From a bacterium (GTDB lineage Bacteria > CLD3 > SB21): 53,501 bases of DNA. A program made the translations under genes and the position numbers. Positions 1 through 53,150 of the stretch are shown here, piece after piece (position 1 is the first letter of the stretch; every line of letters begins with the position of its first letter). Below the pieces are notes generated by a model. That model was not told where the DNA came from and searched no databases. It worked only from the letters and a program-made list of their open reading frames with translations. Location: contig JAIBAF010000021.1 of assembly GCA_019695335.1 (NCBI GenBank), positions 1 to 53,501 of the forward strand, in the 5' to 3' direction.

Positions 1-200
1 CCATGTGTTCTTTTCTTTGTCTTGATACAAAGAAAAGAACCAAAAGAAAAATCAAGGCTGTGATAAAACCGCTGGAATCCGAGTTCGCTTGCTGGTGGCG
101 GAAAACAGTTCCTCGCTGAGAGTATTCAAAATTGATTGGATTCATTCCACGTTTTCCGCAGGTATGATGTCGCGAACTCGAATTCTCTGATCGGCGGTTT
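1..200. repeat. Interspersed repeat, copy 1 (about 200 bp)
   Basis: This block is nearly identical to 320-522 and resembles 53399-53501. It opens with a self-complementary stretch, TTCTTTTCTTTG then CAAAGAAAAGAA, and continues into a shared core with ATCCGAGTTCGCTTG and GGCGGAAAACAGTTC. The two left copies agree except for scattered substitutions and short indels, then diverge after the shared CGGCGGTTT at 192-200. No transposase is encoded. It looks like a dispersed non-coding repeat; the open frame through copy 2 (322-555) is not a credible gene. Confidence 0.85.
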
Positions 201-266
201 TATCAAGGCCGAATGAATGCGTGTAAAGGGAGTGTCATTCCCATTTCGACTTTCTATCCAGATGTC

Positions 267-286
267 ATTCCCGCGAAAGCGGGAAT
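267..286. repeat. 20-bp inverted repeat of the form ATTCCC-N8-GGGAAT
   Basis: ATTCCC, eight bases, GGGAAT, within the longer shared string GTCATTCCCGCGAAAGCGGG and followed by AATCCAG. The same form recurs at 53312-53331 and 53366-53385, and a left half-site is near 235-243. The pattern is the one described for neisserial dRS3 elements; the shared form does not prove a shared origin. Confidence 0.75.
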
Positions 287-319
287 CCAGTGAATGAAAT
301 ATAAAATGAATCGGCTACG

Positions 320-522
320 CCATGTATTCTTTTCTTTGTCTTGATACAAAGAAAAGAACCAAAAGAAAAATCAAGGCTGTGATAAAACCGCCGGAATCCG
401 AGTTCGCTTGTTTTGGTGGCGGAAAACAGTTCCTCGCTGAGAGCATTCGAAAATTGATTGGATTCATTCCACGTTTTCCGCAGGTATGGCGTCGCGAACT
501 CGTATTCTCTGATCGGCGGTTT
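320..522. repeat. Interspersed repeat, copy 2
   Basis: Second direct copy of the 1-200 repeat, same orientation, about 120 bp downstream. It ends at the same CGGCGGTTT (514-522), one base before the stop codon of the minus-strand gene at 524, so the repeat abuts that gene's 3' end. Between the copies lie the 20-bp ATTCCC element and nothing else recognisable. Confidence 0.85.
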
Positions 523-1207: not shown

Positions 1208-1795
1208 TTATTTCGGTGCGTGAAATTTTGTCTTGAATACTCCAATTCCAGCTGTAGACCAAAAATCGGCTGTGCCAACTCGAGCGAAGTAGTATGAACC
1301 ATCCTTATCTCTCTCATAGAGCGGTGCTTTGGCACTTGTATTCATTATGAGTATCATTTCTATATGATATTCATGCCTCGGCTCAAGCAAGCCATGAAAT
1401 GAAAAAATGGCGTTTTTTTTCGGTGGAATAATTACAAAAGGTATCAAATAATTTCCGAAAGGAAAAAATTTAACATCGGCATCAATTGATGCTAACAATG
1501 TAGAATCGCCTGAGGTGATGTTGCATTGATATTCCACGTAATCTGGAAAGTCCAACCTAATTAAATCATTGTCTAAATAAAAATTGCAAGGTTTAACTAA
1601 ATATGGAAGGATAAGTGTGTCTGGCGATTTATTATCGATCATTACCTCGATATTGTAAATGCCCAAGTCAAGTTTGTTGACAAATAGTCTTATCGACGCA
1701 GGCTCTTCTTTGCTTGCAACATAATGATAGATTAGTGATTTTGTTGAACAACTGGTGAGTGCTAGAACAGATATTAAGAGTAATTTTTTGATCAT
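1208..1795 (-). CDS. Putative lipoprotein, 195 aa
   Basis: The N-terminus MIKKLLLISVLALTSCS is a short lipoprotein signal peptide with an LTSC lipobox, so Cys16 should be lipidated and the protein exported. The mature part is rich in beta-forming residues, with pairs of charged turns (DLGIYNIEVMIDNKS), suggesting an Ig-like or other beta-sandwich fold. No family or catalytic motif was recognised. It precedes the 205-aa unknown gene on the same strand. Its upstream region contains a perfect 25-bp palindrome (1901-1925) and then the 21-bp dyad array. The function is unknown. Confidence 0.65.
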   Translation of the reverse strand: MIKKLLLISVLALTSCSTKSLIYHYVASKEEPASIRLFVNKLDLGIYNIEVMIDNKSPDTLILPYLVKPCNFYLDNDLIRLDFPDYVEYQCNITSGDSTLLASIDADVKFFPFGNYLIPFVIIPPKKNAIFSFHGLLEPRHEYHIEMILIMNTSAKAPLYERDKDGSYYFARVGTADFWSTAGIGVFKTKFHAPK

Positions 1796-1900
1796 ACTAC
1801 CGTTTTCAATTCTTACTTGAGAATTTTCAGAAAAGCCATTTCGAAGAGCACCTCCGCACTAAAATTACGTCCCGACCCAAGCAAAGTCAAATCAATTTTC

Positions 1901-1925
1901 AATTGACAATCGTCGATTGTCAATT
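1901..1925. promoter_or_regulatory. Perfect 25-bp palindrome
   Basis: AATTGACAATCG, one T, CGATTGTCAATT: both 12-base arms match without a mismatch. It lies about 105 bp upstream of the minus-strand lipoprotein start (1795) and directly beside the 21-bp dyad array. It could be a protein-binding site or the boundary of a repeat; a related AATTGACAAT string occurs upstream of pepT. Confidence 0.6.
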
Positions 1926-2475
1926 AAGACGATTCCTACCGAACATAGGAACGTTCCTTGCTACCTGTCCTAAGAAACTTTCCTTCAATCCGAAGCAATG
2001 TTCCTAAAAAATTATGGAAAGTTTCATCAATGATATAGAAACATTCCTCAGGTAGTGATGAGACATTCCTTACAAGCTATGGAAGTTTTCATAGGTGTGG
2101 TAGGAACTTTCCTTAAGATCGAAGAGACTTTGCTAAGCGGTTGTAGCAATCGCGCAAGCGCAGCAAGGAAATGTTCTATCGATCCGAAGCATCATTCTAT
2201 TCGCCGATAGGGAGATTCCTTCATTCCGAAGGAAAGTTCCTTCAGATCATAGCATCATTGCTATCGCGGATAGGACCGTTCCTTCATTTTGAAGGAAAAT
2301 TGCTTCAATCGGAAGGACTATTCCTTCGAACGGATAGCATCATTCCTTGCGCCGATAGGAAGATTCCTTCATTCTGAAGGAATGTTGCTTGTGCCGGAAG
2401 GAATGTTCCTTCGGATGGTAGCATCGCTGCCATCGCGGATAGGATCGTTCCTTCGTACGATAGGCCAATCCTATT
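1924..2475. repeat. Array of about 26 short dyads spaced 21 bp apart
   Basis: Each unit is an imperfect palindrome close to GAAGGAA-NN-TTCCTTC followed by about 5 variable bases. Dyad centres fall near 1931, 1952, 1978, 1999, 2020, 2042, 2064, 2085, 2107, 2128, 2151, 2172, 2193, 2214, 2235, 2256, 2277, 2298, 2319, 2341, 2362, 2383, 2404, 2425 and 2446, with a weak one near 2467. Spacing is exactly 21 bp over 2151-2319 and 2341-2446. Arm changes are often compensated, for example AGGAA/TTCCT becoming AGCAT/TTGCT. Because 21 is divisible by 3, every frame gives a 7-residue repeat, which explains open frames here without any protein being implied. The region 2476-2588 shows nothing further. Confidence 0.85.
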
Positions 2476-2786: not shown

Positions 2787-5700
2787 CTAGTTTTTCTTCC
2801 AGTCGGGCAATCGGTTAGGCGTGTATGGCGCGCCGTATTTTTCCAAAGTCGCTTCGACTTGTTTGATATCCGCGTCGATGGATTTCAGCGACGTCAATAT
2901 CGTACCGAATTGCGCCGACGCTACATCATACAATTGATAAAATGTATTCGTCGCTGCGGAAGTTGTCGACCACAGACTGGAGGTGATCGTTTCCACGCGC
3001 GCTTTCACGGATGTCGGGCCGGTACTTTCGTAGATATTACGCAAAGCGTCGCCATTGAGCTGGCGATTGAGTTCCTTCAGGCGGTCTTCGATCGCAAGCA
3101 GCGTCTTGTAAGTATCGTTGGGCAGATTGCTGGATTCGAAAACGGCTTGCTTCAGGAAGGGCACGCGCTCGGCTAATTCACCGCGGTAGGTTTCCGCCGC
3201 GTTGACAGCGCGGATCAGTTCAGCCGTTTTTTTATTGAACGCATCGAGCGCTTTGTAATCCGTGACCGGTAACGTTCCCGGGTTCAGCGGCACGCAATTA
3301 AATTCCTGAGCCGGAACGAGCTCGGTAAATTGTCCGTTCTCAAATTTACTTAATGTTACTTTGTATTTTCCGGGAGGCGCCATGTAGCCGACGTCGGGAG
3401 TGATCCACGGAACGGAGTAATCGAACGGCGTCAGAGAAATCGGCGAGAATGCGCTATACCGGAAATCCCAGACGATGCGATTGACGCCTTTGCTGACGTC
3501 CGCCTTGATTTTTCTAACGACGTTGCCTTGTTCGTCCGATACTGTAAAAAGCAGATAAGGCGTTAATTCGTCCGCTTCTTTTCGTAATGTATTGAAAGGA
3601 GGGAATTCGATTTCTTCGCCTTTTTTCTGTTTTTCTTTTTCAGCGTCTCTTCTTTTTTTCTTGAGCGATTTGAAATCGTCCCGCAGATAATAAGTAAAGA
3701 CGGCGCCCACGTCAGGATTGGGCGTCGAGAAGAAACTGCCGCCCTGGAATCCGACGCCGGGATAACCGAATGGCGAGGCTTGCACGAACATCTGAGCGTC
3801 TTTGATGGGGAATATCGCTGCATCTTTCTGAGCGATTTTTTCGGAGATATTGCGCAGTGGCGTATAGTCATCGAGAATAAATATGCCGCGTCCGAATGTC
3901 GCCACGACAAGGTCGTTTTCGCGTTTCTGAATCTGCAGGTCCGTGATGGCTGCGGGCGGCAATCCGTTATTGAACGAGACCCAATCTTTACCGCCGGTAT
4001 TGGAAACGTAAAGCCCGAACAGAGTTCCGGCGAAAAGTAAATTCGGATCAACATGATCTTCTGCGACGGAGAAGGTGGAACCTTTGACGGGCAGATTGGC
4101 ATTGAGCATCGACCATGTTTTCCCGCCGTCGACGGTTTTCATTAAGTAAGGTTTGTAATCGCCTTCGGCGAAGTTATGACATGCCGCGTACGCGACGAGT
4201 TTATTATGATTGGATGCAGCGATACTCTGAACGCGCGCATATTCCGGCAAACCCGGTGTCGAGGCTTTCGTCCAGGTTTTACCGCCATCGGCGCTGTAAT
4301 GGATCAATCCGTCACCGGATCCGGCGAATAAAATATTGGCGTCGATCGGGGATTCGGCAATCGAGGTAATCTGTGCCATCGAGCCTTTGGAAGCGTATTC
4401 ATCGTAGCTCCAGAATTTGCCCTGCATTTTCAAAATCTTTTGCGGAACGCCGCGCGTGAGATCGCCGCTGATGATCGTCCAGCTATTACCCTGATCGTCG
4501 GTGCGGAAGATTTTTTGTGCGCCGAAATACAAACGTTTATTGTCGTGACCGGAAATAAGGAGCGGGGAATCCCAATCGAAACGATAACCGGTGTCGGCGG
4601 TGTCAGTCGGCCTGATAAATAATTGCTCGCGCGTTTTCCGGTCATACCTTACGAGTCCGCCGTTTTGCGATTGCACATATAATAAATCGGGATTTTTCCA
4701 ATCGGCTTGGGTTTCGAAACCGTCGCCGCCGAGTGTGAAAAGCCAATCCTGGTTGGTAATGCCGCTGGTATTGATCGTGCGGGAAGGGCCGGTAAAACTG
4801 TTGTTGTCTTGCGTACCGGCGTAGACATTGTAAAACGGCAGAGCATTATCCGTCGAAACTTTGTATATCTCGGATAAACTGAGATTGGCTTTGAAGTCCC
4901 AGTTTTGGCCTTGATCCCACGTTTCGTACACGCCGCCGTCGTTGCCGGAAAGCAAGTGACGGTTATTGGTCGGATCGATCCACAGCGCATGATTGTCGAC
5001 GTGTTTATTTTTCTCGCCAAGTTTTTTCCACGTGGCGCCACCGTCATAACTCACTTGATTGAAAACATCCATGCTGTAAAGCATGTTTTCATTTTCGGTA
5101 TCGCAGAATAATTCCTGGAAATAAAAAGCATACGTTGAAACGTAGCTGCTTTGTTTGGACCAACTCGCGCCGCGATCTTTGCTGCGGTATACGCCGCCGT
5201 TTGATTTAGCCTGGACAATGGCGTACAGCACGTCGGGGTTGGCCGGTGAAATAGCCATGCCGATGCGTCCGACGTCTGCCGTCGGCAATCCGGTCATAAT
5301 GCGGTTCCACGTTGCGCCGCCATCGGTCGTTTTGTAAATAGCGCTTTCCGGTCCGCCGCTGACCGTCGAGTACAATTTTTTGAATCGCTGATGCGCGACG
5401 GCGTAGAGGACATTGGAGTTGCGAGGATCCATGTGGATCTGATAACATCCGGTGTAGTCGCTGATAAATAAAACGCGTTGCCATGTTTTACCGCCGTCGG
5501 TGGTTTTATACACGCCGCGTTCGCCGCCTTCAGTACGGAACGGGCCGTAAGCGGCAACGTATACGACGTTGGAGTTATTCGGATCGATGGCAATGCCGCC
5601 GATGTATTCGGACGTGCTCAATCCCATGTTCTTCCAGCTTTTGCCGCCGTCTTCGGTTTTATAAACGCCGTCGCCGAAGATAACATTGGTCTGGTTATTA

Positions 5701-6041
5701 CTTTCACCGGTACCGGCCCAGACTACATTAGTATTCGAAGGGTCGATCGCCACGCACGCCATCGAATATGATTTTTGATCGTCAAAAACAGGCGAAAAAG
5801 TGACTCCGCCGTTCGATGTCTTCCACAAAGAACCGTGACCCGACGCGACGTAGTATTCGCTGTGATCGTTGGGATTAACCGCAATATCGACCACGCGGCC
5901 TCCCGTGAAGCCCGGCCCGATACTGCGAAAACTCAAACCGGATAATGAAAGGCTTTTAAGGGAATCGTTTTTTTGTGCAACCGCTGAACACGCCAGCAAT
6001 GCTGCCAATAAACCGTAAATGATCAGACGTCTCCTCTCCAT
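2787..6041 (-). CDS. Secreted BNR/Asp-box repeat (sortilin/VPS10-like) protein, 1084 aa
   Basis: The protein begins with a signal peptide (MERRRLIIYGLLAALLACSA) and is probably exported. It then carries at least ten Asp-box turns spaced through residues about 75-740 (SNGGVTF, EDGGKSW, TDGGKTW, TDGGATW, KDRGASW, YDGGATW, DDQGNSW, ADGGKTW, VDGGKTW, TGGKDW), typical of the beta-propeller fold of sialidase- and VPS10-like proteins usually annotated as glycosyl hydrolases. Residues about 850-960 look like a FlgD-type Ig domain (KADVSKGVNRIVWDFRY, PPGKYKVTL). The C-terminus is helical. I chose the ATG at 6041 over one 39 bp upstream because AAAGGA lies 8 bases before it and the signal peptide starts there. 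The ligand or substrate cannot be told from sequence; binding rather than hydrolysis is possible. Confidence 0.85.
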   Translation of the reverse strand: MERRRLIIYGLLAALLACSAVAQKNDSLKSLSLSGLSFRSIGPGFTGGRVVDIAVNPNDHSEYYVASGHGSLWKTSNGGVTFSPVFDDQKSYSMACVAIDPSNTNVVWAGTGESNNQTNVIFGDGVYKTEDGGKSWKNMGLSTSEYIGGIAIDPNNSNVVYVAAYGPFRTEGGERGVYKTTDGGKTWQRVLFISDYTGCYQIHMDPRNSNVLYAVAHQRFKKLYSTVSGGPESAIYKTTDGGATWNRIMTGLPTADVGRIGMAISPANPDVLYAIVQAKSNGGVYRSKDRGASWSKQSSYVSTYAFYFQELFCDTENENMLYSMDVFNQVSYDGGATWKKLGEKNKHVDNHALWIDPTNNRHLLSGNDGGVYETWDQGQNWDFKANLSLSEIYKVSTDNALPFYNVYAGTQDNNSFTGPSRTINTSGITNQDWLFTLGGDGFETQADWKNPDLLYVQSQNGGLVRYDRKTREQLFIRPTDTADTGYRFDWDSPLLISGHDNKRLYFGAQKIFRTDDQGNSWTIISGDLTRGVPQKILKMQGKFWSYDEYASKGSMAQITSIAESPIDANILFAGSGDGLIHYSADGGKTWTKASTPGLPEYARVQSIAASNHNKLVAYAACHNFAEGDYKPYLMKTVDGGKTWSMLNANLPVKGSTFSVAEDHVDPNLLFAGTLFGLYVSNTGGKDWVSFNNGLPPAAITDLQIQKRENDLVVATFGRGIFILDDYTPLRNISEKIAQKDAAIFPIKDAQMFVQASPFGYPGVGFQGGSFFSTPNPDVGAVFTYYLRDDFKSLKKKRRDAEKEKQKKGEEIEFPPFNTLRKEADELTPYLLFTVSDEQGNVVRKIKADVSKGVNRIVWDFRYSAFSPISLTPFDYSVPWITPDVGYMAPPGKYKVTLSKFENGQFTELVPAQEFNCVPLNPGTLPVTDYKALDAFNKKTAELIRAVNAAETYRGELAERVPFLKQAVFESSNLPNDTYKTLLAIEDRLKELNRQLNGDALRNIYESTGPTSVKARVETITSSLWSTTSAATNTFYQLYDVASAQFGTILTSLKSIDADIKQVEATLEKYGAPYTPNRLPDWKKN

Positions 6042-6173
6042 GGTAATGATCCTTTCTTTGCAAAGTAGAAGATGATTCATATTTGAAATGGCGTGGAATT
6101 TTATCCAAGCAGAATTTTCTGCAGAATGGCAAAGCTTGTAACGATAGTTATAGTAAAAGGTTGCACCAATCTT

Positions 6174-51603: not shown

Positions 51604-51857
51604 GACAATTCCTTGAATAGAAGTTGGGAAAAGCGCTCTGAAAGCGCGGTTTCAGGCCATAATGTTGATTTTTTGAACAGCGGCAAGTTAGGGTTTGCTT
51701 CTGAATTACGCAAGAGAATTAACGGGTCAAAATCTTTGATCAATGCTCAGGAAAAAAATCCGTCATTGAGTTTCTTTTCCTGAAAGGATACCTTTTACGT
51801 ACCAATGACCAATGTCATAGTTCAATCGGCAAAAACATGCGATATTAGCTGATTGAA

Positions 51858-51886
51858 AATTGGCAATTGAAAATTGACAATTAGAA
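51858..51886. repeat. Tandem 14-bp repeat before pepT
   Basis: GATTGAAAATTGGC then AATTGAAAATTGAC then AATT, just upstream of the pepT ribosome binding site CCGGAGG. It shares AATTGACAATT-like strings with the palindrome at 1901-1925. The rest of 51604-51857 shows no feature I can support. Confidence 0.45.
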
Positions 51887-51899
51887 ACCGGAGGTTGTT

Positions 51900-53150
51900 A
51901 TGTTCGATCCGAAATACCCATTCACCTGCGTCGATCGTTTTTTGAAATACGTTAAATACGATACGCAATCCGACGATGAATCCACCACATTTCCCAGCAC
52001 GGCCAAACAAAAAATCCTATCCCGCGATCTGGCGAAAGATCTCAAAAAAATGGGATTGAAAGACGCCGCCATGGATAAATGGGGATACGTGATGGCGACC
52101 CTGCCGTCGAATACGAAGAAAAAAGTTTCCCCGATCGCTTTCATTGCCCACGTCGACACATCGCCGGCCGTGACGGGCGCGAAAGTCAAACCGATCATAC
52201 ACAAAAATTATCAAGGCGGAGATATACCGCTTCCTAAAGATCCACACCAAATCATTGAAGCCAAAAATAATCCCGATCTGCAAAATATGATCGGATACGA
52301 TATCATTACGGCCGACGGCACGACCTTGCTTGGGGCGGATAACAAAGCCGGTGTTGCGGAGATCATGGACGCGGTCAACTATCTGCTCAAACATCCGGAA
52401 ATCAAACACGGCCCCATTAAAATATGCTTCACGCCGGATGAAGAAGTCGGACGCGGCACGGAGAAAATCAATCTGAAAAAGCTCGGCGCGAAGTACGCCT
52501 ATACGGTGGACGGACAAAGCCGGGGAGAAGTCGAGACGGAGACCTTCAGCGCCGACATGATGATCGTCAAATTTCACGGTAAAAACATTCATCCCGGTTA
52601 TGCCAAAAACAAAATGGTCAATGCCGTCAAAGTCGCCGCGCGATTTATCGAAAGCCTTCCCAAAGATCATCTTTCACCGGAAACGACCGAAGGCAAAGAA
52701 GGATTCGTCCATTGTGTATCGTTTACAGCCAATGAAGAATTAGCGACGTTAAAATTCATCATCCGCGATTTTGTCACGGAGAAACTCAAAGATCACGAAG
52801 GAGTCGTGAAAGATCTGGCCGAAAAAGCGGCGATGCAATTTCCCGGCGCCCGCGCCGAATGCGAAGCGAAAGAACAATACCGCAATATGAAATATATCTT
52901 GGATAAACATCCTGAAGTCGGGGAAAATGCCATCGAAGCCATGAAGCGGCTGAATATCGAGCCCATTTTGAGTCCGATCCGCGGCGGTACCGACGGTTCG
53001 CGCCTTTCCTTCATGGGATTGCCGTGCCCCAATATTTTTGCCGGCGAACACAGCTTTCATTCGAAGTTGGAATGGGTTGCCGTGCAGGATATGGAGATGG
53101 CGGTGCGTGTGATCGTGACGATTGCACAGATTTGGGAAGAACGGGCTTAA
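51900..53150 (+). CDS. pepT: Peptidase T (tripeptide aminopeptidase)
   Basis: 416 aa, M20B. Metal ligands appear in order: HVDTSP (His, Asp), GADNKAG (bridging Asp), PDEEVGRGT (Glu pair, catalytic base), VDGQSRGEVE (Asp) and AGEHSFHS (His), with GGTDGSRLSFMGLPCPNIFA. The enzyme cuts the N-terminal residue from tripeptides in the cytoplasm. A strong CCGGAGG precedes the ATG. It is transcribed away from the M1 aminopeptidase. No terminator was seen after it. Confidence 0.95.
   Translation: MFDPKYPFTCVDRFLKYVKYDTQSDDESTTFPSTAKQKILSRDLAKDLKKMGLKDAAMDKWGYVMATLPSNTKKKVSPIAFIAHVDTSPAVTGAKVKPIIHKNYQGGDIPLPKDPHQIIEAKNNPDLQNMIGYDIITADGTTLLGADNKAGVAEIMDAVNYLLKHPEIKHGPIKICFTPDEEVGRGTEKINLKKLGAKYAYTVDGQSRGEVETETFSADMMIVKFHGKNIHPGYAKNKMVNAVKVAARFIESLPKDHLSPETTEGKEGFVHCVSFTANEELATLKFIIRDFVTEKLKDHEGVVKDLAEKAAMQFPGARAECEAKEQYRNMKYILDKHPEVGENAIEAMKRLNIEPILSPIRGGTDGSRLSFMGLPCPNIFAGEHSFHSKLEWVAVQDMEMAVRVIVTIAQIWEERA

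Follow-up and report, generated by a model that had tools for sequence, protein, structure and literature searches.

An intergenic array in which about 25 imperfect dyads of 16 bp follow each other with a period of 21 bp (positions 1930-2475, no strand assigned) was found in the stretch of DNA analysed here (the window, 53,501 nucleotides), i.e., contig C21 of a 3.76-Mb genome which is assembled in 130 contigs and whose phylum contributes nine genomes to the searched set. Judged from its sequence, the array is suggested to be a non-coding DNA platform built from alternately inverted half-sites for a dimeric protein, a reading to which we assign a probability of roughly 0.58. The half-sites are GAAGGA or ATAGGA together with their reverse complements. 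On one side the array is flanked by a putative lipoprotein gene of no family (1208-1795, minus strand), for which no relative was found in any of the other eight genomes of its class, and on the other by a gene encoding Sortilin-Vps10/BNR repeats (2787-6080, minus strand), which is conserved in the family. At the left edge of the array lies the perfect palindrome AATTGACAATCG-T-CGATTGTCAATT (1901-1925, no strand assigned), which is terminator-like on the minus strand with a weak T-tail, and a strong terminator-like hairpin of 14 pairs with a T-tail (2736-2767) follows the Sortilin-type gene and is conserved in the sister species (L060, about 4912-4950). At the contig end (window 1-522), two copies of an element of about 200 bp lie about 320 bp apart, with parts being 95-98% identical; the element carries a perfect 14-bp hairpin (GTTCTTTTCTTTGT...ACAAAGAAAAGAAC) and is probably a dispersed repeat at which the assembly broke off.

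About 25 units were written out from 1945 to 2475. They take the form RWAGGAA-NN-TTCCTWY and comprise the dyad types GAAGGAA-NN-TTCCTTC and ATAGGA-NNNN-TCCTAT, whereby GAAGGAAAGTTCCTTC at 2228 and GAAGGAATGTTCCTTC at 2397 are perfect dyads of the first type and ATAGCATCATTGCTAT at 2249 is an almost perfect alternative dyad; many units are distant from the consensus. The best-preserved block (2186-2475) holds 14 units, all steps of which are 21 bp except for one of 22 bp, and the left part (1945-2163) consists of 10 more degenerate units with a 21-bp autocorrelation of 0.46 (shuffle maximum 0.39). For the entire array, the autocorrelation at lag 21 amounts to 0.50 (right part 0.53), with echoes at lags 42/43, 63/64 and 85, and the highest 21-bp value among 1000 dinucleotide shuffles was 0.34 (up to 0.39 for the parts); the period is hence not reproduced by shuffled sequence, a check that had been attached to the original prediction. 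That prediction had counted about 26 dyads at a spacing of 21 bp, of which the approximate number and the periodicity were borne out and the uniform spacing was not: 17 of the 24 steps measure 21 bp, five measure 22 bp and the others 23 and 26 bp, resulting in a mean of about 21.1-21.3 bp, i.e., two helical turns. Register slips of +1 are frequent along the array and as a consequence a rigid 21-bp phase score did not reach significance. The excess of individual good dyads in the right part is only moderate (7, as compared to a shuffle mean of 2.0 and a maximum of 8). As had been proposed, the array lacks coding sense, since stops interrupt all six frames, and no family matches it, the Rfam search having yielded nothing above gathering scores (best chance matches with E values of 0.26 and 0.89).

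The base frequencies of unit columns 1-16 are mirrored between left and right arm (r = 0.94, a value that no column shuffle out of 5000 attained), and this extends to minor variants, with C in column 5 and G in column 12 each being present in six units. Thus, the two arms represent one half-site in opposite orientations. Pairwise comparison of the units revealed an identity of 0.58-0.62 for the arms at every lag as compared to 0.27-0.35 for the 5-nt linkers, composition alone giving an expectation of 0.255. Unit starts were placed partly by eye on the arms, which leaves the exact-spacing blocks unaffected, and in exact 21-bp blocks, where there is no freedom of unit placement, the arms reach 0.66-0.76 versus 0.31-0.33 for linker and centre combined. 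Within the array, a block of 85 bp is duplicated (four units; copies at 2249-2333 and 2334-2418, no strand assigned), which allowed the divergence of both kinds of position to be compared: 50 of 56 arm positions and 17 of 29 other positions are identical, so that 6 and 12 positions, respectively, have diverged, about four times less in the arms (Fisher P = 0.0018), whereby the arm positions were derived from the whole array, so that the test depends to some extent on the column profile. These patterns point to selection acting on independent symmetric half-sites, and the simplest reading would be that units were born via duplications of three to four units, after which selection holds the half-sites and the linkers drift.

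The genome-wide search for dyad arrays that had been proposed for following up the original prediction, carried out as a pattern search and with a covariance model (R1) built from units of both arrays, uncovered a second array on contig C76 (5590-5955, locus L005), which shares the core of the first. Its commonest dyad is GATAGG-N5-CCTATC, its 21-bp autocorrelation is 0.45 (shuffle maximum 0.36) and, as in the C21 array, arms are conserved and centres and linkers are free. The 16-mer GAAGGAAAGTTCCTTC recurs identically at 5790 of the C76 array, and the common core together with the common 16-mer suggests that both arrays have the same reader. An ECF sigma factor gene and a likely anti-sigma gene locate about 4 kb from this array (L005, 550-1697). 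Scanning roughly two thirds of the genome (2.46 Mb) without a preset motif revealed a third non-coding 21-bp array on contig C37 (3031-3310, locus L110), which comprises 12-13 units of the type AATGAGGTTYNRAACGTRARY in steps of 21/22 bp, possesses a different motif (AATGAGGTTTCAAACGTGAGT-like) with a weak dyad, contains a near-perfect 64-bp repeat of three units and sits between two paralogous genes. The C37 array may either stand apart from the other two as a repeat that is perhaps neutral, or hint at a wider class. At the edges of all three arrays, AT-rich tandem motifs of heptamer-like type (TCAATTG/ATTGACA and AATGAAT/ATTCATT) were observed (window 1891-1927; L110 2910-2940 and 3340-3385; L005 5995-6025), and such motifs likewise directly precede the gene that starts at 51900 of the window (51852-51887).

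In the sister species both neighbouring genes are kept, i.e., the Sortilin-type gene (90% identical over the compared part) and the YCII-like gene neighbouring the C76 array (82% identical), and no array is present beside either of them; for the C76 site this absence rests on the model search and on the approximately 340 bp between the YCII-like gene and the end of the sister contig. Related genomes had also been proposed as the place to look for a decayed protein gene, and at the site of the C21 array the sister species harbours neither such a gene nor any array. For the gene downstream of the C76 array, too, the remaining eight genomes of the class contain no relative. From neighbouring genes without relatives and arrays missing in the sister species, both arrays are concluded to sit at variable, probably acquired segments. 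The array is missing from those relatives in which purifying selection could be read off directly. When 386 genomes from the whole domain were searched with the covariance model, no additional copy emerged; exact-pattern scans of about 85,000 species genomes (four contig matches represent one or two dyads or unrelated repeats) and of viral contigs (again one or two dyads or unrelated repeats) yielded no array, nor did BLAST in plasmid and phage collections, whereby all of these searches are bound to the C21/C76 motif and a like architecture with other motifs would escape them. Weak covariance-model matches in genomes G001, G003, G124 and G356 and the match in G135 were rejected as chance or coding repeats. 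A true coding 21-bp repeat in G135 (L071, 1420-1570; SAPSAQSA-type heptads) imitates the array period and serves as a useful negative control. In the open-access literature, no description of tandem palindromic 21-bp arrays was found.

The original prediction had assumed compensatory changes in the arms and had offered a protein-binding platform or a chain of small RNA hairpins as explanations. Compensation was not confirmed: within the C21 dyads 95 of 150 cells are paired, no better than with randomly dealt right arms (90.3 ± 4.4, P = 0.17), and the same holds for the right part (P = 0.25) and for the C76 array (P = 0.67). Another alignment, based on 18 three-unit tiles and including both strands, gave 64.5% paired cells as compared to 67.5% in shuffles, and mixed dyads such as ATAGG...CCTTC are frequent. 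A symmetry centred on the linker was tried and rejected, as the arms of neighbouring units slightly exceed chance only in the C76 array (P = 0.03; C21 P = 0.08; right part P = 0.45). Wobble bias was sought in the dyads and G-T mismatches (11) equal A-C mismatches (9), which, along with the lack of arm covariation, fits independent half-sites and not RNA stems. That the array is transcribed into hairpins or into a large structured RNA is therefore considered quite unlikely, even though both strands fold far better than shuffles (z = -9.1 and -5.6 for C21, -7.3 and -9.8 for C76). Stable folding follows trivially from numerous mutually complementary arms and occurs on both strands, the structures predicted are long-range pairings instead of a chain of hairpins, and an Rfam family is lacking. 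Of the two explanations offered, the platform is thus the one retained, in line with half-sites that mirror each other, arms that are conserved next to freely varying centres and linkers, and helical phasing.

The main rival to a protein-binding platform assumes a tandem repeat free of selection, in which a palindromic seed was multiplied by slippage or unequal exchange in steps of three to four units and drifted afterwards, arm conservation then being due to a recent origin or to homogenisation of short tracts among inverted copies. We regard it as improbable, albeit a serious possibility. In its favour, higher-order duplications exist (85 bp in C21, 64 bp in the C37 array), the orthologous site in the sister species lacks the array, degenerate units are numerous, and the C37 array with its other motif and near-identical 64-bp repeat indicates that some 21-bp arrays of this genome may be simple duplications. 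Slippage, however, copies linkers as well as arms, yet the linkers have fallen to 0.27-0.35 with the arms at about 0.6, and the 85-bp duplication likewise diverged less in its arms, an argument behind which few units stand; homogenisation of inverted arms should moreover yield the within-dyad covariation that was not found. Intrinsically curved DNA, phased at 21 bp for bending and not for a sequence-specific protein, is very unlikely to be the explanation. In a wedge model, the mean predicted curvature of the arrays falls into the 87th-90th percentile of sampled genome windows and the maxima into the 98th-99th, but curvature is not significantly above that of column-permuted versions (C21 P = 0.16; C76 P = 0.08) and can follow from periodicity alone, and bending needs no mirrored half-site profiles. 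Finally, 21 bp correspond to seven codons and genuine heptad repeats are encoded in this genome as well as in others, which would be compatible with the decayed gene of a seven-residue-repeat protein. This origin was rejected and is extremely improbable, as stops occur in each of the six frames, the period resumes after spacings of 22, 23 and 26 bp, the units are palindromic and no intact relative was found.

Several known systems share features with the arrays. Replication iterons of plasmids and phages, including the dyad iterons of lambda ori, measure 19-22 bp and are bound by initiators. The C21 array resembles them in layout, being directly repeated at 21-22 bp or about two helical turns, and differs from them in possessing about 25 units, where a handful is usual, and in arms that flip orientation every turn. 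ArgR recognises pairs of ARG boxes, i.e., 18-bp palindromes that are separated by 3-bp spacers and hence repeated at 21 bp, in the promoters of arginine genes. Palindromic sites 21 bp apart on one helix face are common to both, but ARG boxes come in pairs as opposed to the 25 units of C21, have a different consensus and reside in arginine gene promoters. With CRISPR the arrays share conserved palindromic repeats and variable spacers, yet degenerate 16-bp units with linkers of about 5 bp are far too short when compared to CRISPR repeats of about 23-47 bp and spacers of about 26-72 bp, and no cas genes were found among the neighbours examined; the original prediction had likewise argued against CRISPR. 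A conventional operator would be dispersed over several promoters, whereas dyad matches outside both arrays are near the control level in the genome, which speaks against a dispersed regulon that could back a known factor; REP, BIME or MITE elements would be present in many dispersed copies, whereas only two arrays of this motif and singletons at chance level were found. The partition centromere sopC/parS of plasmid F consists of twelve 43-bp repeats holding ParB sites (PMC8465637). Here the likeness, as judged from the sequence, would lie in tandem dimer-type sites at near-integral helical turns with room for many dimers, and the difference in a period of 21 instead of 43 bp, degenerate sites and two arrays in the genome. 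Among the genes around both arrays neither a ParA/ParB family member nor a replication initiator was found, and no DNA-binding gene is directly adjacent to either array; as the defining neighbour genes of these systems are missing, the C21 array was filed neither as a centromere nor as an iteron array. As heptamer-like repeats flank the arrays, the intergenic TAACTGA direct repeats of Beggiatoaceae were compared as well (PMC4679880); they resemble the arrays in being intergenic tandem short motifs upstream of genes, and differ from them in being direct 7-bp repeats and not 21-bp dyads.

Given the platform reading, it is proposed that one dimeric (or polymerising) sequence-specific protein would recognise the half-site RWAGGA, i.e., GAAGGA or ATAGGA, reading it in alternating orientation about every 10.5 bp. 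Thus, 20-25 dimers would line up on one helix face along some 540 bp to build a nucleoprotein complex of cooperative nature, whereby protein binding as such, the dimeric state and cooperativity are all inferred from the arrangement of the sites. As for its role, our guess would be that the complex acts locally to mark, silence or tether DNA that has been acquired or, alternatively, that the array is what a mobile element has left of its platform for partition or replication. The further idea that the arrays at two strain-specific loci represent a platform of a kind not described before, centromere-like or silencing and lacking neighbouring protein genes, on which one dimeric protein coats acquired DNA, is regarded as doubtful. 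The comparison of arm and linker divergence provides a way to recognise such arrays where relatives are lacking, and the C21 and C76 arrays are a ready bait for the protein. If a protein does bind, one array would accommodate about 25 dimers on a single face of the DNA and would hence be an unusually dense natural platform.
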